A stretch of 35,423 nucleotides of DNA, from NCBI GenBank assembly GCA_001873295.1, contig MNYW01000152.1, forward strand, positions 1 to 35,423. Direction: 5' to 3'. Both the position numbers and the translations under genes were made by a program. Below, one piece after another: positions 10,275 to 30,845 of this stretch. A model generated the notes under the pieces. That model ran no database searches. It was not told the origin of the DNA and saw nothing but the letters and a program-made list of their open reading frames with translations. The DNA is from Nitrospirae bacterium CG2_30_70_394 (GTDB lineage: Bacteria; CG2-30-53-67; CG2-30-70-394). Each line of letters opens with the position of its first letter. Within the stretch, counting starts at the first letter, position 1.

Positions 10275-11678
10275 ATGGACGCAGCCAAGCAGACCCCCTT
10301 CGAAGCCGACGACGACCGCCCTCCGAATCCCACCACCGGAGACTGCGCGTCTCCGGGCCCCCTCGTCGCCACCCTTCCCCCGCCGTCCCTCTCCTCTCCC
10401 CTCGAGTTCGACCTCTCCCCGCTCGCCGCGGCCTCCCGCCACGGCATGCTCCCCCTGACCACTCACTCCCTGCCTCTGTGGGGGAGTGCTGCCTGGTCTT
10501 CCTGGCGCGCCCAGCTCCGGGCGCGGCTCCGCGATGTGGACAGCCTCGCCCGCGCCCTCGGCGCAAGCGACCTGTTGGCGGACACCGGTGCGGCGGTGCG
10601 CCGTTTCCCCATGGCGATCACGCCGTACTACGCCTCGCTGATCCGCCGCTTCGACGAGTCCGACCCGATCTTCGCCATGGCGGTCCCGCACGGCGGAGAG
10701 GTGGTCGATCCGCCCTTCCTCTCCGACGACCCGCTGGAGGAGGAGCACGACTCGCCGGTGCCGAACCTGGTCCACCGGTATCGCGATCGGGCGCTGTTGC
10801 TGGTCACCTCGACCTGCGCCATGTACTGCCGCCACTGCACGCGCAAGCGGGTCGCCGGTCAGCAGGAGTCGGCGATCACCGACGCCGAGCTCGCGGTCGC
10901 GGTGGGCTACCTCCGCGACCATCCGGAGATCCACGACGTGATCCTCTCCGGCGGTGATCCCCTCACCCTGCCCACTGAGCGTCTGGAGCAGATTCTCCAG
11001 GCAGTGCGCGCGGTGGAGACGATCGACGTGATCCGCATCGGCAGCCGTACCCCGGTGACCATGCCCATGCGGATCACCCACAGGCTGGTGACGATGTTGC
11101 GCCGCTACTCGCCGATCTGGATCAACACCCACTTCAACCATCCCGTCGAGCTCACCCCCGAGTCCATGGAAGCGTGCGGCCGGATCGTCGACGCGGGCAT
11201 GCCCCTCGGCAACCAGTCGGTTCTCCTGCACGGGGTGAACGACGACGCGCAGGTGCTGGAGAAGCTCTTCCGCGGCCTGGTGCGCAACCGGGTGCGGCCG
11301 TACTACCTCTTCCAGTGCGACCTGGTGCGCGGCGTGGAGCGGTTTCGCACGCCGCTCTCCAAGGGGATCGAGATCATGGAGTACCTGCGCGGCCGGGTGA
11401 GCGGCATCGCCATCCCGACCTTCGTGGTCGATGCCCCCGGCGGGGGCGGCAAGATCCCCCTGCTGCCCAACTACATCGTCTCCATGAGCCCGACCCACAC
11501 GGTGCTGCGCAACTTCGAGGGCCGGATGGTGAGCTACCCGGAGCCGATGGAGCGTCACGATTCCACCCCCGCCGCCGCCCCGCACGCGGGGGTGGCGACG
11601 GTCTTCGAGCTGTGCCGCGGCACCGCCACCACCCTCGGGCCGGACGACCACGGCGGCTGTACGGCGCACGGCGGGTGA
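10275..11678 (+). CDS. Radical SAM lysine 2,3-aminomutase family (KamA-like)
   Basis: CAMYCRHCTRKRV (CxxxCxxC), DVILSGGDPLTL, NTHFNHPVELTPE, GMPLGNQSVLLHGVND motifs; RBS GAGGAGAAGGAG before ATG. Confidence 0.92.
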   Translation: MDAAKQTPFEADDDRPPNPTTGDCASPGPLVATLPPPSLSSPLEFDLSPLAAASRHGMLPLTTHSLPLWGSAAWSSWRAQLRARLRDVDSLARALGASDLLADTGAAVRRFPMAITPYYASLIRRFDESDPIFAMAVPHGGEVVDPPFLSDDPLEEEHDSPVPNLVHRYRDRALLLVTSTCAMYCRHCTRKRVAGQQESAITDAELAVAVGYLRDHPEIHDVILSGGDPLTLPTERLEQILQAVRAVETIDVIRIGSRTPVTMPMRITHRLVTMLRRYSPIWINTHFNHPVELTPESMEACGRIVDAGMPLGNQSVLLHGVNDDAQVLEKLFRGLVRNRVRPYYLFQCDLVRGVERFRTPLSKGIEIMEYLRGRVSGIAIPTFVVDAPGGGGKIPLLPNYIVSMSPTHTVLRNFEGRMVSYPEPMERHDSTPAAAPHAGVATVFELCRGTATTLGPDDHGGCTAHGG

Positions 11679-11769: not shown

Positions 11770-12768
11770 ATGGGACTGAGGATTGGTCTGGTCTACGACC
11801 TGCGCGCCGCGTATCGCGACCAAGGGCTCTCCGAGGAGGCGCTGGCGGAGTTTGACAGCGAGGCGACCGTCGATGCCCTCGACGCGGCGCTGCGTGGCCT
11901 CGGCCACACCCCCGACCGGATTGGCCACGGTCGCGAGCTCGCCCGCCGGCTGGTCGCCGGGGAGCGGTGGGACCTCGTCTTCACCATTGCCGAGGGGGTG
12001 GCCGGGAGGTCGCGCGAGGCGCAGGTGCCGGCGTTGCTGGAGATGTTCGCGGTTCCCTACACCTTCTCCGATCCCCTGACCTGCGCCGCCACCCTCGACA
12101 AGGGGGTGGCCAAAAGGCTGGCAGCGGCGGCGGGGGTGGCCACCGCGCGCTTCGCGGTGGTGGGCGCGGTGGCGGAGCTTGACGCGCTGGAGCTCACCTA
12201 TCCCCTCTTTGCCAAGCCCCTCGCCGAGGGGACCGGCAAGGGGGTGGACGGCGACAGCCACGTCACCACCCCGGCGGCGTTGCGGCCGGTGGTGGCGCGG
12301 CTGCTCGCGCGCTACCGCCAGCCGGTTTTGGTGGAGGAGTACCTGCCCGGGCGCGAGTTCACCACCTCGCTCCTCGGCACCAGTGCAGACGCCCGCGTCC
12401 TCGGCACCCTGGAGGTTCTCCTCCGGGAGGGGGCACCGCACGGCGACTACACCTTTGCGGTGAAGGAGGAGAGTGAGCAGTACGTGGACTACCTGCCGTT
12501 GCGCGACCCGCTGCTGCGCGGCCCGGTGGAGGCGCTCGCCCTGTTGGCCTACCGCGCCCTTGAGTGTCGCGACGCAGGAAGGGTGGACGTCCGCCTCGAT
12601 GGCCAGGGGCGGCCCTGCTTCTTGGAGGTCAACCCCCTGCCCGGTCTCCACCCGAGCCATTCGGATCTGCCGATGACCGCCATTGCCTACGGCATGGGCT
12701 ATGGCGAGCTGATCGGGGCGATCGTCGCGAGCGCCTGCCGTCGCTATGGGATCCGCCATGGGGCGTGA
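11770..12768 (+). CDS. ATP-grasp ligase, D-alanine-D-alanine-ligase-like
   Basis: IAEGVAGRSREAQVPALLEMFAVPYTFSDPLTCAATLDKGVAK, FLEVNPLPGL motifs. Confidence 0.88.
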   Translation: MGLRIGLVYDLRAAYRDQGLSEEALAEFDSEATVDALDAALRGLGHTPDRIGHGRELARRLVAGERWDLVFTIAEGVAGRSREAQVPALLEMFAVPYTFSDPLTCAATLDKGVAKRLAAAAGVATARFAVVGAVAELDALELTYPLFAKPLAEGTGKGVDGDSHVTTPAALRPVVARLLARYRQPVLVEEYLPGREFTTSLLGTSADARVLGTLEVLLREGAPHGDYTFAVKEESEQYVDYLPLRDPLLRGPVEALALLAYRALECRDAGRVDVRLDGQGRPCFLEVNPLPGLHPSHSDLPMTAIAYGMGYGELIGAIVASACRRYGIRHGA

Positions 12769-14290
12769 GCCGGAGGTCCTGCTTCTCTACAACGAGCCAG
12801 TTGTGGGTGGATTGGCGAGCGAGGCGGGGGTGCTGGCGGAGGTGGCGGCGGTGCGCGCCGGCCTGGAGCTCCTTGGCCTTCCCTATCGCGAGGCCGGGGT
12901 GCGGACCCTGGAGGAGGCCCTCGCCACCGTGGCGGTGGGCGGCGAGGGGGTGGTCTTCAATCTGGTGGAGGGGTTTGCGACCGGCGGCGAGGATGCGGCG
13001 CAGGTGGTCGCGGTGGCGGCCGGCCTCGGCCGCGGCTGCACCGGCAACACCACCGCCTGCCTCGCCCTCACTTTGGATAAGGTGCGCACCAAGGGCGTGC
13101 TGCGCGAGTACGGGGTACCGGTCCCCGACGGGGTGGTGGTCGCCATGGGTGAGGCGGTCCCGCCGCTACCGGCCGGGGTCGGCCCGTGGATCGTGAAGCC
13201 GGTGGCGACGGATGCGAGCGAGGGGATCGACGCGGAGCGCTCGGTGGTCCGCACCGCGGGACCGGAGCTGGCGGCGGCGGTGGCGCGGGTCCACCGCGAC
13301 TTTCGCCAGGCGGCGCTGGTAGAGCGGCTGGCCGGCAGCCGCGAGCTGAACGTCTCGCTGCTGGAACGCGGCGGGGGTGTGGAGGTCCTGCCGTTGGCGG
13401 AGATCGACTTCTCCGCCTTCGGCCCCGAGCGGCCGCGGATTGTCGACTACGCGGCGAAGTGGGACGTGAACGCCTTCAGCTACCACCACACCCCGCGCCT
13501 GCTGCCCGCGCCTTTGGATGCGGCGCTTGCCGAGCGGGTGCGGAAGGTGGCGCGGGCGGCGTGGCAGGCGGTGGGATGTCAGGACTACGCGCGGGTCGAT
13601 CTGCGCCTCAGCGACGCCGGCGACCTCTTCGTGCTGGAGGTGAACGCCAACCCGGATCTTTCGCCGGACGCCGGCTTCGTTGCCGCCCTGGGTGCAGCGG
13701 GGCTGGCGATGGCGGATTTCGTCGCTGCCGTGGTGGACAACGCGCGCCGCAGGCGGCCGGTTGCGGTCCCACCCCCGGTGGAGGCCGCCGCGTCCGGAGC
13801 GGGTGGGGTGGCGGTTCGCCCCCTGGAGCGGGGTGACCGGGACGCGGTCTTGGAGGTGGTGCGGCGGGCGGCGGTCTTTCGCCTCGATGAGCAAGAGATC
13901 GCCCGCGAGGTTCTCGACGACACGCTCGCGCGCGGCGCGGCGGCGGGCTACTACGGCCTGGTCGCCCGCCTCGCTGGCCGCATCGTCGGGTGGGCCTCCT
14001 ACGGTCCGATTCCATGCACCGTGGGCGCCTACGATCTCTACTGGGTGGTGGTGGACAAGGCGGCGCGGCGGCAGCGAGTCGCCTCGACGCTCATCGCCGA
14101 GGTGGAGCGCCAAGTGGGCGCCCTGGGCGGCCGGCTGATCGCCATCGAGACCTCCAGCCGCCCGGCCTACACCGCGGCGCGCGCCCTCTACGGGCGGTGC
14201 GGCTACGCGGATGCGGCGCGGGTGGCGGAGCTCTACGGGCCAGGCGACGACAAGTGTGTCTTCGTGAAGCACCTCCCCGCCGGCCGGTGA
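12758..14290 (+). CDS. ATP-grasp ligase (Ddl-like) fused to C-terminal GNAT acetyltransferase domain
   Basis: N-terminal FNLVEGF...TLDKVRTK...VLEVNANPDLS; C-terminal VRPLERGDRDAVLEVV...YDLYWVVVDKAARRQRVASTLIAEVE...ARALYGRCGY. Confidence 0.88.
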   Translation: MGREPEVLLLYNEPVVGGLASEAGVLAEVAAVRAGLELLGLPYREAGVRTLEEALATVAVGGEGVVFNLVEGFATGGEDAAQVVAVAAGLGRGCTGNTTACLALTLDKVRTKGVLREYGVPVPDGVVVAMGEAVPPLPAGVGPWIVKPVATDASEGIDAERSVVRTAGPELAAAVARVHRDFRQAALVERLAGSRELNVSLLERGGGVEVLPLAEIDFSAFGPERPRIVDYAAKWDVNAFSYHHTPRLLPAPLDAALAERVRKVARAAWQAVGCQDYARVDLRLSDAGDLFVLEVNANPDLSPDAGFVAALGAAGLAMADFVAAVVDNARRRRPVAVPPPVEAAASGAGGVAVRPLERGDRDAVLEVVRRAAVFRLDEQEIAREVLDDTLARGAAAGYYGLVARLAGRIVGWASYGPIPCTVGAYDLYWVVVDKAARRQRVASTLIAEVERQVGALGGRLIAIETSSRPAYTAARALYGRCGYADAARVAELYGPGDDKCVFVKHLPAGR

Positions 14291-15749: not shown

Positions 15750-16190
15750 TTGCAAAGGGGAAAACATCTACTGATCGATTGCCAGGGCGTCTCCCGGGAT
15801 GTGTGTCTCGATGACCGGGGAATGCTCCGCGCAATGGCGGTGGCGGCCGAGCGTGCCGGTGCCACGGTGGTCTCCCAGGTCCGGTACCACTTCGGCCACA
15901 ACTCGCCACCCGGCTTTACCGCGGTGGTCCTCTTGGACGAGAGCCATTGCACCGCGCACACCTACGCGGACCTTGGCCTCATCGCCCTCGACGTCTTTAC
16001 CTGCGGCTCCACCGAGCCCCGGGATGTCCTCGCGTACCTGCGCGAGGAGGTCGACCTCGGCGAGGTGACCATCCGCGAGGTCGGGCGCTTCCCGCTTGAA
16101 CCCGGGATGGAGGGCCACGGTGCGGTGCTCGCCGCGGTGGCCAACGAGTTGGCGGTGGCGACGCCCGGGGATGGGCCGCGCTTGGCATGA
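15750..16190 (+). CDS. speD: S-adenosylmethionine decarboxylase proenzyme
   Basis: GKHLLIDCQG, VVLLDESHCTAHTYADLGLIALDVFTCG (ESH pyruvoyl-forming site); TTG start with upstream GGAGG. Confidence 0.88.
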   Translation: MQRGKHLLIDCQGVSRDVCLDDRGMLRAMAVAAERAGATVVSQVRYHFGHNSPPGFTAVVLLDESHCTAHTYADLGLIALDVFTCGSTEPRDVLAYLREEVDLGEVTIREVGRFPLEPGMEGHGAVLAAVANELAVATPGDGPRLA

Positions 16191-17281
16191 GTGAGCGCGG
16201 TCTCCACGACGGCCGTCACGACGGCCTCGTGCCGCTGGAGAGCCTCGATCTCGCGGGGGTGGACTCCTTCGCCGCCCTGCTGCGCGCGATGGCGAAGACC
16301 GCCTTTGGCGGTCGCCAACTCGGCGAGGCGCTGGAGATCCTCCTCACCATGGCGCGCGACCCGGCGTGCCGGGTGGTCCTCACCCTCTCCGGGGCGATGA
16401 CCGTGGCGAAGCAGGGGCGGATCCTCTGCGACCTGATCGATCGCGGCGTGGTCCATGCGGTGATCGCCACCGGCGCCTTGATCGCCCACGGCCTTACCGA
16501 GTCGATCGGCCTCACCCACTACCGTCACGACCCGGACCACTCGGACACCCTGCTCTTTCAGCAGGGGTATAACCGGATCTACGACACCCTGGAGATGGAG
16601 TCCAACCTCAACGAGGTGGAGCGGCTGCTGGCCTCGATCCTCGCCAGCGTGCAGGCGGAGACGGGCGGGTGGTCGTCGGCGCGGTTGTGCCGGGCGATCG
16701 GGGCGCGGCTGGTGGAGCTCGATCAGGGGCCCGGGGTTTTGAAGAGCGCCTTCGAGCAGGGGGTGCCGGTCTTCATCCCCGCCTTCACCGACAGCGAGAT
16801 CGGGCTCGACGTCTCCACCTGGGCAATGGCCGCGGCCCTCCGCCAGGCAGGGCGCGATCCGGCCACAGTGACTTCCCCCGCCGAGCTCTTCCAGGCGATC
16901 CCGCCCTTCAACCCCTTTCTCGACCTCCAGGAGTACGCCCGCCTCGCCTGCGCCGCCGAGCGCCTCGGTATCTTCACCATCGGCGGCGGGGTGCCGCGCA
17001 ACTGGGCGCAGCAGGTGGGGCCGTACGTGGACATCACCCGCAACCGTCTGGGCACGCCGGTCACCCCACCGCGATTCCAGTACGGGGTGCGCATCTGCCC
17101 GGAGCCGGTGCACTGGGGTGGCCTGTCGGGGTGCACCTACTCGGAGGGGGTGAGCTGGGGCAAGTTCGCACCCCACGCGGAGGGGGGGCGGTACGCGGAG
17201 GTGTACAGCGACGCCACCCTCTGCCTCCCGCTCCTGGCGAAGGCCCTCTTCGAGGAGCTCGACGCCTCCCCCCGGCAGTGA
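16187..17281 (+). CDS. Deoxyhypusine-synthase-like protein (bacterial DHS-like/SpeY type)
   Basis: VLTLSGAMTVAKQG, GALIAHGLTESIG, IGGGVPRNWAQQ, YSEGVSWGKF (DHS active-site Lys context); ATGA overlap with speD. Confidence 0.9.
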   Translation: MSERGLHDGRHDGLVPLESLDLAGVDSFAALLRAMAKTAFGGRQLGEALEILLTMARDPACRVVLTLSGAMTVAKQGRILCDLIDRGVVHAVIATGALIAHGLTESIGLTHYRHDPDHSDTLLFQQGYNRIYDTLEMESNLNEVERLLASILASVQAETGGWSSARLCRAIGARLVELDQGPGVLKSAFEQGVPVFIPAFTDSEIGLDVSTWAMAAALRQAGRDPATVTSPAELFQAIPPFNPFLDLQEYARLACAAERLGIFTIGGGVPRNWAQQVGPYVDITRNRLGTPVTPPRFQYGVRICPEPVHWGGLSGCTYSEGVSWGKFAPHAEGGRYAEVYSDATLCLPLLAKALFEELDASPRQ

Positions 17282-24912: not shown

Positions 24913-25010
24913 GGGAGTGGATGTGGCCTGGTGGCCGCCGCGGTCTTCAAAACCGTTGAGGGGCCGCGCGAGCGGTCCTTGGTGGGTTCGATCCCCATGC
25001 ACTCCCGCCA
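24913..25010 (+). tRNA. selC: tRNA-Sec (anticodon TCA, 24947-24949), CCA encoded
   Basis: CGGTcttTCAaaACCG-type anticodon arm (cggtcttcaaaaccg), long variable arm GGGGCCGCGCGAGCGGTCC, T arm GTGGG-TTCGATC-CCCAT, acceptor GGGAGTG/CACTCCC, GCCA end; D-arm sequence CCTGGTGG like selC. Confidence 0.93.
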
Positions 25011-26007: not shown

Positions 26008-26258
26008 GTGGGCGCCCCGCCCGCGCCCGTCTCCTCGGATTTACATCGAGGCCCGACTCGATCAGCTCGTGGGCGCCCCGCCCGCGCCCGTCTCCTCGCC
26101 CGCAGCTCACACCCCCGAGGGTCGCGAGGGGGTGGCAACGCGCCGTGGTGCCGGCCCCTCCGGGAGGCCGTCGACCAATGGGCGAAGCCCCCCACAGGTA
26201 GGACGTGGCAACGCGCCGTGGTTCCGGCCCCTCCGGGAGGCGCCGATTCCCATCGGCG
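26008..26258. repeat. Intergenic tandem-duplicated sequences plus hairpin
   Basis: 30-nt exact repeat 26008-26037/26069-26098; 38-nt repeat with one mismatch 26132-26169/26205-26242; hairpin CGCCGAT-tccc-ATCGGCG at 26241-26258. Confidence 0.85.
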
Positions 26259-26318
26259 ATTCCGGTCCGAGGGGGAGGCCGCGCCCAGGGCGCGCGGGTC
26301 GGCGGTGGGGCAGCCGGG

Positions 26319-26933
26319 TTAGTAGCCGGCCAGGCGCAGGAACTCGGCGCGCGTCGTCTCCGAGTCGCGGAAGTCGCCGAGCATGCACGAGGTGACGGTG
26401 GTGGAGTTTTGCTTCTGGACGCCGCGCATCACCATGCACAGGTGGGTGGCGTCCATGATCACTCCCACCCCCTTCGGCTGGAGGAGGTCGGCGATCAGGT
26501 GGGCGATCTGGGTGACCAGCCGCTCTTGGACCTGCAGGCGGCGCGAGTAGATCTCCACGATCCGCGCCAGCTTGGAGAGGCCGACGATCTTGCCGCCGGG
26601 GATGTAGGCGACGTGGCAGCGGCCAAAGAAGGGGAGCAGGTGGTGCTCGCACAGGGAGAAGAAGTCGATGTCCTTGACGATCACCATCTCGTCGTAGGCG
26701 TCGGTGAAGATCGCCTCGTTGAGGACCTGCACCGGGTCTTCCTCGTACCCCTTGGTGAGGAAGCGGAGCGACTCCGCCACCCGCGCCGGCGTCTTCACCA
26801 GCCCCTCGCGCTCCGGGTCCTCGCCCACCGCGGCGAGGATCGCGCGCACCGGCTCGGCCATGTCCACCGGCGTGCTGCCGCGGGCGGCGGTGTAGGAGGC
26901 GGCGATCTCGATGGGGTGGCTGGCGGGGGGCAT
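26319..26933 (-). CDS. folE: GTP cyclohydrolase I
   Basis: [54 protein letters not shown]-type motifs. Confidence 0.95.
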
Positions 26934-27035
26934 GGCTTCCTCCGGGCGCAAGGCGCATCTGGCGTGGGCAGGGGTGGCAGGTAGACTGGGGCGGACGGTA
27001 GGGAAGGGCGGGGGTGTAACCAAGGGCGGACGGCG

Positions 27036-27513: not shown

Positions 27514-28068
27514 ATGTCCATCAAATCCGACCGCTGGATCACCGCGATGGCCCGCGACCACGGCCTCATCGACCCCTTCGAGGAGGGGCAGGTACGCCAC
27601 GGCGTCGTCTCCTACGGCGTCTCCTCCTACGGCTACGACACCCGCGTCGGGGACGAGTTCAAGATCTTCACCAACGTGAACTCCTCGATCGTCGACCCGA
27701 AGGCGTTCGACCCCGCCTCGTTTGTCGACATCAAAACCGACGTCTGCATCGTCCCCCCCAACTCCTTCGCCCTCGCCCACACGGTGGAGTATTTCCGCAT
27801 CCCGCGGAACGTCCTGGCGATCTGCTTGGGAAAATCCACCTACGCCCGCTGCGGCATTATCGTGAATGTCACCCCGTTCGAGCCGGGCTGGGAGGGGTTG
27901 GTGACCATCGAGATCTCCAACACCACGCCGTTGCCGGCGAAGATTTACGCCAACGAGGGGATCGCCCAAGTTCTCTTCTTCGAGGCGGATGAGGCGTGCC
28001 TCGTCTCCTATGCCGACCGCCACGGTAAGTACCAGGGGCAGACCGGCGTCACCCTGCCGCGGATCTGA
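27514..28068 (+). CDS. dcd: dCTP deaminase
   Basis: [43 protein letters not shown] motifs. Confidence 0.95.
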
Positions 28069-28120
28069 AATCCGCGCCTCCCCTCCAGCCCCACTCCCGC
28101 CTTCCCACCCCGAGGAGCCC

Positions 28121-28465
28121 ATGTCCGAGATCATCTTCTTCAACCGCTCTTGAAGCGGCTGCCGGCCGGCAAGGGAGTTTCTCTTGCGCAACCAGGTGGC
28201 CTACACCAACCACGATGTCCGTCTCCACCCGGTGGGGCCGGAGGACGCCCTGCTCTACCTGCGCCGGGCGGCCGCTTTGTTCGTGAAACGCGGCGCGGTG
28301 GTGGCGGAGCTGCCGGCGGGTGGGGCGGGGCTCACCGACGGCGGCCTGCTCGCCGCCTTCCTCGGCCGGTCTGGCGCCCTGCGGGCGCCCACCCTTCTCA
28401 CCGGAGTTGGGCTGATCGCCGGCTGGGACGAGACGGTCTACCGCCACCTCTTGGGGCTGTCATGA
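28121..28465 (+). CDS. Selenocysteine-containing ArsC/Spx-like thioredoxin-fold protein (UGA Sec codon at 28151-28153)
   Basis: ATG-initiated frame MSEIIFFNRSU(SGC)RPAREFLLRNQVAYTNHDVRL...FLGRSGALRAPTLLTGVGLIAGWDETVYRHLLGLS* is continuous except one UGA; U aligns with the first Cys of CxxCRKAR in Spx-type proteins; GAGGAG RBS; SECIS-like hairpin at 28169-28187; selC at 24913. Confidence 0.9.
28169..28187 (+). promoter_or_regulatory. Putative bacterial SECIS element
   Basis: GCAAGGG-AGUUU-CUCUUGC: 7-bp stem (one G-U), 5-nt apical loop with G at position 2, loop starts 22 nt after the UGA. Confidence 0.8.
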
Positions 28466-28562: not shown

Positions 28563-30845
28563 ATGAGAGTCGCCGCCATGGACGCTTCCCTTCCCATCGT
28601 TGCCCGCCGGGTGACCGTCACCGGACGGGTCCAGGGGGTGGGCTTTCGCCCCTTCCTCTACCGCCTCGCCCACGCCTGCAAAGTCGGCGGCTGGGTGCGC
28701 AACGACGCGGGGCGGGTGGAGGTGCACGTCGAGGGGGAAGAGGCGGCGGTGGTGCGCTTCCTCGGGGCGATCGTGGCTTCGGCGCCGCCTTTGGCGCGGC
28801 CGGTGGTGGCGGGGGTGGTGGCGGTTTTGCCGGCGGGGTGCGGCGAGTTTCGCATCGTGGCCTCGCTTCCCGGAGTGGCGCGCGAGGCCCACGTGGTGCC
28901 CGATCAGTTCTGCTGCGCTGACTGTCTGGCGGAGATCGCCGACCCCGCCGCGCGCCGTTACCGCTACCCGTTCATCAACTGCACCCAGTGCGGGCCGCGC
29001 TACACGATCATCGCCCGCCTGCCCTACGACCGGCCGAACACCGCCATGGCGCGCTTCCCGCTGTGTCCCGAGTGTCGCGCCGAGTACGAGGATCCTTTGG
29101 ATCGCCGCTTCGATGCCCAGCCCCTCGCCTGCCCGGTGTGCGGCCCGCACCTTGCCTTCACCGGCTACAGTGGGCCGCCGATCGCGGACACCACCGCGGC
29201 TTTGGCGAAGACCGCCGCGGCGATTCGGCACGGCGCGATCGTGGCGGTGCGCGGCATCGGCGGTTACCACCTCCTCTGCGACGCCTACAACGACGCGGCG
29301 ATCGCCCGCCTGCGGGCGCGCAAGCCGAGGCCGGACAAGCCGCTGGCGGTGATGGTCGAGCAACGCGGCGGCGACGGTCTCGACGGGGTGCGCGAGATTG
29401 GCTCGCCCAGCGTGGCGGAGGCGGCCTGCCTGCTCGACCCCATGCGCCCGATCTGCCTAGTGGCGAAGGGCGGCAGCGCGCCCCTGCCGGAGGCGATCGC
29501 CCCGGGGCTTGGGGAGATCGGGGTGATGCTCCCCTACTCGCCCCTCCACCACCTCCTGTTGGCGGAGGTCGGTACGCCGGTGGTGGCCACCTCGGGCAAC
29601 GTCGCCGGGGAGCCGGTCCTCACCGAGGTGGCGGAGGCGGAGGGAAGGCTGCACCACGTGGCCGACTGGTTCCTCCACCACAACCGGCCAATCTTGCGCC
29701 CGGCGGACGATCCGGTCGTGCGCGTCATCGCCGGGGCACCGCAGTGGTTGCGCCTCGGGCGCGGCTGTAGTCCGGCCGAGCTGGCTTTGCCGGTGGGGGT
29801 GGCGCTCCCGCTGCTGGCGGTGGGCGGCCAGGAGAAGAACACGATCTGTCTGGCGTGGGACGACCGCGCGGTGGTCTCGCCCCACATCGGCGATCTGGAA
29901 ACGGTGCGTGGGTTGGCGGTCTTCGAGCAGGTGGCGCGGGATCTGCAACAGCTCTACGGGGTGGAGGCGCGCTGGCTCGCCTCGGATGCCCACCCGCGCT
30001 ACACCGCCACGCGCTGGGCGCGGGAGCGGGGAATGGAGGTGGTGGCGGTCTACCACCACCACGCCCACGCCAGCGCCCTGGCCGGGGAGCACGGGGTGGC
30101 GGGGGAGATCCTCTGCTTCACCTGGGACGGCACCGGCCTCGGTCCCGACCGCACGGCTTGGGGGGGCGAGGCGCTCCTCGGCCGGCCGGGCGCTTGGCGG
30201 CGGGTCGCGTCGTGGCGCCCGTTCAAGATCGCCGGCGGGGATCGCGCCGGGCGCGAGCCGTGGCGGGCGGCGGCGGCGGTGTGCTGGGAGGCGGGGGTCG
30301 GCTGGTCGGAGCTGCCGGGCGACCCGGACTTTCTCCACCAGGCCTGGGCGCGGGGGGTGAATTGCTTCACCACCACCGCGGCCGGCCGTCTCTTCGACGC
30401 GGCCGCGGCACTCACCGGCCTCGGTGGCTTTGCTACCTACGAAGGGCAGGGGCCGATGCGGTTGGAGGCGGCGGCGGGCGGCGCGGCGGGGGATCCCCTG
30501 GCCCTGCCCCTGGTCCGCGACGCGGCCGGCGTCTGGCGCACCGACTGGGCAGGGCTGCTGCCCATGCTCCTCGACCGCCAGCTTACCGTGGCGGAGCGCG
30601 CCGGCCGCTTCCACGCCAGCCTCGCCGCGGCGATCGTCGCCCAGGCCAGGGCGGTGCGGGCAGCGAGCGGGGTGGCGGTGGTGGGGCTCACCGGCGGCTG
30701 CTTCCAGAACCGTCTGCTGACCGAGCAGGCGCAGGCCGGCCTCGCCGCCGCCGGTTTCCACGTCCTGCTGGCTAGCCGCGTACCCGCCAACGACGCGGGG
30801 CTCTCCTACGGCCAGGCGGTGGAGGCGGCGGCGCGCGCGGGGTGA
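28563..30845 (+). CDS. hypF: Carbamoyltransferase HypF ([NiFe] hydrogenase maturation)
   Basis: Acylphosphatase domain GRVQGVGFRPF, CADCLAEI..CTQCGPRYTII, CPVCGPHL zinc motifs, YHHHAHASALAGEHG. Confidence 0.96.
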   Translation: MRVAAMDASLPIVARRVTVTGRVQGVGFRPFLYRLAHACKVGGWVRNDAGRVEVHVEGEEAAVVRFLGAIVASAPPLARPVVAGVVAVLPAGCGEFRIVASLPGVAREAHVVPDQFCCADCLAEIADPAARRYRYPFINCTQCGPRYTIIARLPYDRPNTAMARFPLCPECRAEYEDPLDRRFDAQPLACPVCGPHLAFTGYSGPPIADTTAALAKTAAAIRHGAIVAVRGIGGYHLLCDAYNDAAIARLRARKPRPDKPLAVMVEQRGGDGLDGVREIGSPSVAEAACLLDPMRPICLVAKGGSAPLPEAIAPGLGEIGVMLPYSPLHHLLLAEVGTPVVATSGNVAGEPVLTEVAEAEGRLHHVADWFLHHNRPILRPADDPVVRVIAGAPQWLRLGRGCSPAELALPVGVALPLLAVGGQEKNTICLAWDDRAVVSPHIGDLETVRGLAVFEQVARDLQQLYGVEARWLASDAHPRYTATRWARERGMEVVAVYHHHAHASALAGEHGVAGEILCFTWDGTGLGPDRTAWGGEALLGRPGAWRRVASWRPFKIAGGDRAGREPWRAAAAVCWEAGVGWSELPGDPDFLHQAWARGVNCFTTTAAGRLFDAAAALTGLGGFATYEGQGPMRLEAAAGGAAGDPLALPLVRDAAGVWRTDWAGLLPMLLDRQLTVAERAGRFHASLAAAIVAQARAVRAASGVAVVGLTGGCFQNRLLTEQAQAGLAAAGFHVLLASRVPANDAGLSYGQAVEAAARAG

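Follow-up and report, generated by a model that had tools for sequence, protein, structure and literature searches.

Described ArsC-like selenoproteins and the present locus

A 2006 study described ArsC-like selenoproteins (PMC1794560), and a UxxC "Arsenate reductase 2" was reported in 2008 (PMC2398784). A 2022 review describes an arsenate reductase-like UxxC family (PMC9312934), and a 2026 review gives NF041106 by name as an arsenate reductase-like protein with UxxC (PMC13188914). Judged by its description, ArsC 2 (cd03032) of the Global Ocean Sampling is likewise an ArsC/Spx-type protein with UxxC (PMC2398784). The caution in the original prediction that ArsC-family selenoproteins may be known already was well placed, as they are catalogued (PMC2398784, PMC13188914). 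The gene described here appears to encode a distant member of this known family, and what seems to be new is a deep branch missed by the current model. An earlier sighting of the branch under another name is possible. The understanding of selenocysteine insertion is unchanged by the finding.

The gene lies in a window of 35,423 nucleotides (the whole stretch of DNA that was analysed) from Nitrospirae bacterium CG2_30_70_394. We hold with high confidence that it encodes a 114-residue selenoprotein of the ArsC/Spx fold, most likely a small oxidoreductase, whose Sec11 is directed by SelB and a hairpin. The features are as follows.

24913..25010, plus strand: selC, tRNA-Sec with a UCA anticodon (ARAGORN; Rfam RF01852, 73.5 bits; the neighbourhood in G007, a second genome of the genus, is alike)
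27514..28068, plus strand: dcd, dCTP deaminase, upstream neighbour (TIGR02274, 174 bits; order kept in G007)
28112..28117, plus strand: GAGGAG, separated from the ATG by 3 nt, a possible ribosome-binding site (sequence reading; GAGGAG upstream of the orthologue too)
28121..28465, plus strand: predicted ArsC/Spx-like selenoprotein coding sequence (frame; orthologue differences by codon position 17/12/36, mostly third)
28151..28153, plus strand: in-frame UGA, putative selenocysteine codon, residue 11, in U-x-x-C (the same-genus orthologue and about 70 extracted homologues share the TGA; homologue L005 has Cys instead)
28160..28162, plus strand: Cys14 codon, for the putative resolving residue of U-x-x-C (conservation of 90% or more in alignments A2 and A5)
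28169..28187, plus strand: bacterial SECIS hairpin with an 8-bp stem and a GUU apical loop at 28177-28179 (homologue covariation; agreement with the published bSECIS model)
28563..30845, plus strand: hypF, carbamoyltransferase, downstream neighbour (TIGR00143, 685 bits; order kept in G007)

Sequence and translation agree on the frame originally proposed, which runs from the ATG at 28121 to the terminator TGA at 28463-28465 and is interrupted by one internal TGA (28151-28153) at codon 11. The product, 114 amino acids with U at residue 11 and Cys at residue 14, reads MSEIIFFNRSUSGCRPAREFLLRNQVAYTNHDVRLHPVGPEDALLYLRRAAALFVKRGAVVAELPAGGAGLTDGGLLAAFLGRSGALRAPTLLTGVGLIAGWDETVYRHLLGLS. Two further claims also held: the ORF list misses the N terminus and redox motif, giving just 28184..28465 from an internal TTG, a frame without the first strand, U11, and C14, and selC is located about 3.1 kb away. 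The UxxC motif is selective, being found at 2/127 of the TGAs in the window that have at least 100 open codons after them. A real coding gene has been shortened by ORF calling and, as shown below, missed by the cut-off of the NCBIfam model.

Conservation of the reading frame and its hairpin

In G007 (isolate Dive96_bin1.162), the second genome of the genus, contig JAJRSX010000005.1 carries an orthologue that is 76-78% identical to the window gene and likewise has TGA as codon 11. There, too, dcd and hypF flank the gene and selC is nearby. The worry that the TGA is a sequencing error is ruled out by its presence in both genomes. Over codons 1-28, the two genes differ at 1/84 nt, and synonymously, while later codons vary freely. 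Among degenerate identical codons, synonymous change affects 1/26 in this stretch, compared with 21/55 among the later codons (Fisher p 0.001) and 285/1004 across four genes nearby (p 0.003). Frame 26205-26984 was excluded from the controls because its substitution pattern is not that of a coding frame. Since some control windows in the neighbouring genes are equally conserved (7/1189), the conservation of codons 1-28 is supportive, not conclusive.

These data bear on a simpler reading, in which the locus is an ordinary short ORF from TTG 28184, or a pseudogene, and the TGA either a genuine stop codon or an error of sequencing. The standard ORF listing contains that frame alone, and the GC-rich window harbours many long spurious ORFs, both as this reading would have it. 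Against it stand the near identity of codons 1-28 with the TGA included, compared with far more change beyond them, the TGA and N-terminal homology kept across phyla, and the loss from the shortened frame of the first strand and both residues of the motif. We give this reading very little credence; the UGA is very probably read as selenocysteine.

The 30 nt before the UGA (28121-28150) are identical in both genomes, at synonymous sites too (0/9, p 0.07, the stretch being too short to reach significance). The downstream hairpin does not explain this unchanged stretch. Separately, dcd of the second genome (L002:4423-5960) carries an in-frame intein (PF14890, 7.5e-13) with an HNH-like insert between GKSTYAR and CGIIVNV; the window dcd (27514-28068) is without an insert.

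The published bSECIS model describes a loop of 3-9 nt with G in its first two positions, 16-37 nt from the UGA, on a stem of 4-16 bp with an MFE of -7.5 or below (PMC13188914). The window hairpin, with arms GCAAGGGA (28169-28176) and UCUCUUGC (28180-28187) around the loop GUU (28177-28179), falls within these ranges: the loop G is nt +24 counted from the UGA, the stem has 8 bp, and the energy is -10.3 to -10.9 kcal/mol. Once the closing A-U is opened, the loop reads AGUUU. The original prediction was accurate as to the place and range of this SECIS-like hairpin, which in a single window sequence is nevertheless weak evidence alone. Its stability shows no excess over dinucleotide shuffles (z -0.28), and hairpins of -10.3 kcal/mol or below occur at 39% of 500 TGAs sampled in the window. 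Judging the hairpin by energy only was rejected, as an acceptable one (-7.5 kcal/mol or below) is found at 59% of these TGAs in the GC-rich window and shuffles fold equally well. Because such hairpins are common by chance in the window, the case rests on comparison.

Of 45 TGA-bearing sequences, nearly all have a best hairpin whose loop starts at +23 or +24, with a mean z of -1.7 relative to synonymous recodings (25 each), an indication only as the sequences are related. Among 23-24 homologues, 77-84% of cells are paired, and changes on both sides are seen in 7/8 pairs in two ungapped alignments. These alignments have covariation scores of 0.46 and 0.55, compared with 0.20 and 0.21 when shuffled, and 0/500 shuffles reach such values, a comparison uncorrected for relatedness. 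The scores also exceed those of every slid register, a control that corrects for relatedness, with the structure derived from the same sequences. The case stands well above chance through the orthologue, the covariation of the hairpin throughout the family, and the Sec machinery. As we picture it, SelB with Sec-tRNA would bind the hairpin at 28169-28187, its GUU loop beginning 24 nt past the UGA at 28151-28153, and the ribosome would insert selenocysteine at residue 11 and continue to the terminal UGA.

Relatives and selenocysteine machinery

The best NCBIfam match of the window protein is NF041106 (ArsC_rel_Se_1, "ArsC family (seleno)protein"), with an E value of 3e-14 and 53.3 bits against a cut-off of 85. 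When 386 sampled genomes were searched with this model, 16 sequences scored above the cut-off, 15 with TGA and 1 with Cys (L005, in genome G142). Matches were present in 69/85 genomes of the phylum of G323, nearly all with TGA, and in 65/95 genomes of the phylum of G361, including closer relatives that are 35-37% identical over the full length. The latter make up a second subfamily, UPTC...AREFLS (L091-L098, L100, L109-L120, L126, and L127); five relatives from the same phylum were left out of the set, L099, L122, and L123 because extraction yielded no match and L121 and L124 because the frame extracted was wrong. All 20/20 UPTC members used in the tree carry TGA. Homologues extend upstream of the TGA, and the site holds TGA or, once, Cys; unrelated residues at this position, which the original prediction had named as a warning sign, did not appear.

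In a tree of 56 sequences, the NF041106-type proteins, the UPTC-type proteins, and the window pair form one group each, and a split (100/100) separates all three from Cys-type ArsC/Spx/YffB proteins. The NF041106 clade (support 89/97) excludes the window protein, which also falls outside the UPTC clade and forms a separate branch. Its profile scores are 80 bits for UPTC versus 58 bits for NF041106. The window protein shares with NF041106 proteins the position of UxxC, homology along the full length, an LRAP motif, and a hairpin at +24 nt; it differs in its low bit score, in an identity of 21-32%, and in its clade. With the best UPTC members it shares, besides their full-length identity, the AREFL core, VK.G, and the same hairpin type (GCGAGGGA-GUU-UCUCUCGC), whereas these proteins have RVPV and VRG[YF] in place of its RAPT and AGW. 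The UXX-star/Uxx_star glutaredoxin-like selenoproteins (NF041212 and NF041114) resemble it in that U opens the redox motif of a glutaredoxin-type N terminus, but the match covers the N-terminal part alone (E 0.003) and the models are about 70 positions long.

All 13/13 scanned UPTC members match NF041106 (best E about 1e-15), presumably well short of its cut-off, as with one member at 50.7 bits. The gap into which the window gene falls also takes in at least 20 more TGA-bearing relatives from another phylum; these would be recovered by a profile that draws on both groups. The window and UPTC proteins may be two undescribed, unmodelled selenoprotein subfamilies, sisters of NF041106 with a substrate of their own, a suggestion to which we assign slightly under an even chance. 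Every extracted window and UPTC member has TGA and none has Cys, which would suggest that selenocysteine is needed for function. No NCBIfam model covers UPTC...AREFLS above its cut-off, and several genomes have two family members. One UPTC-type relative (G038, L029:1471-1839) has U-x-x-S in place of U-x-x-C.

An objection foreseen at the outset, that the genome might lack the sel genes, fell away: selA (529 bits), selB (330 bits), selD (353 bits), and selC (73.5 bits) are all present, as they are in the seven other genomes of the same small phylum. A search of the six class genomes outside the genus found no ArsC/Spx-like selenoprotein gene. selB was above cut-off in 26/27 tested genomes with a TGA-bearing homologue, the lone genome with none above cut-off being a draft in 280 contigs (G477). 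It was absent from G142, which has the Cys form, and present in 2/6 genomes whose match is a Cys-type ArsC/Spx relative. Reading of TGA as Trp was rejected, as the selA and selB frames are without TGA and the homologous position holds TGA or Cys. The selD of the window genome (L055, G000:C146:6607-7530) also contains an in-frame TGA (SNCAG-U-ASK).

Predicted fold and function

An AlphaFold model built from 31 sequences (pLDDT 96, pTM 0.89) and a structure search support the ArsC/Spx-type thioredoxin fold proposed from the sequence. The best PDB matches by Foldseek are Spx (3l78, 6ghb, and 1z3e), with E 5e-5, followed by the ArsC-related 3gkx and YffB (1rw1), all at moderate TM-scores of 0.55-0.63; a profile search also finds arsenate reductases and glutaredoxins. 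In the model, U11 and C14 are placed where the first helix (H14-23) begins, as is the redox pair of thioredoxin-fold redox enzymes. Sec11 and Cys14 would likewise form such a pair, passing from selenol and thiol to a selenenylsulfide. The protein is most likely a small thiol/selenol-disulfide oxidoreductase acting with some partner, its function probably that of a selenol/thiol-disulfide reductase.

Spx and YffB are the best matches among solved structures in both fold and sequence, with Spx the nearest, and the UxxC of the window protein takes the place of the Spx CxxC. This likeness could point to a regulator that senses redox state as Spx does, with the alpha C-terminal domain of RNA polymerase as its binding target. 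Set against that are Cys instead of Sec in Spx and YffB, an identity of 16-21%, a TM-score of about 0.6, and a TIGR01617 score of 19.5 bits where the cut-off is 75; a selenocysteine switch would also make an unusual regulator. We consider a regulatory role of this kind unlikely.

A selenocysteine-dependent arsenate reductase of the glutaredoxin-linked ArsC type is similarly improbable, and the protein is probably not a classical arsenate reductase. There is a distant relation to ArsC, and similar proteins are called arsenate reductase or arsenate reductase-like in the literature, but the Pfam ArsC score is 13.1 bits against a gathering cut-off of 24, and TIGR00014 gave no match to the window protein at E 0.001. 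In plasmid R773 ArsC, an Arg beside the cis-Pro helps bind arsenate. From alignment A2, the position of this Arg appears to be taken by Ala89 (LRAP) in the window protein, which we take to be a replacement. Among the scanned neighbours, in the window or in relatives, no ars operon was found. Gene neighbours scanned from 12 relatives had no common theme and no conserved partner hinting at the substrate of the putative oxidoreductase.

Elsewhere in the window, a deoxyhypusine-synthase-like gene (16187-17281) scores below every specific cut-off. Two adjacent D-Ala-D-Ala-ligase-like (ATP-grasp) genes, both below curated cut-offs, occupy 11770-14290, and a KamA-family radical SAM gene (10275-11678) adjoins this pair.
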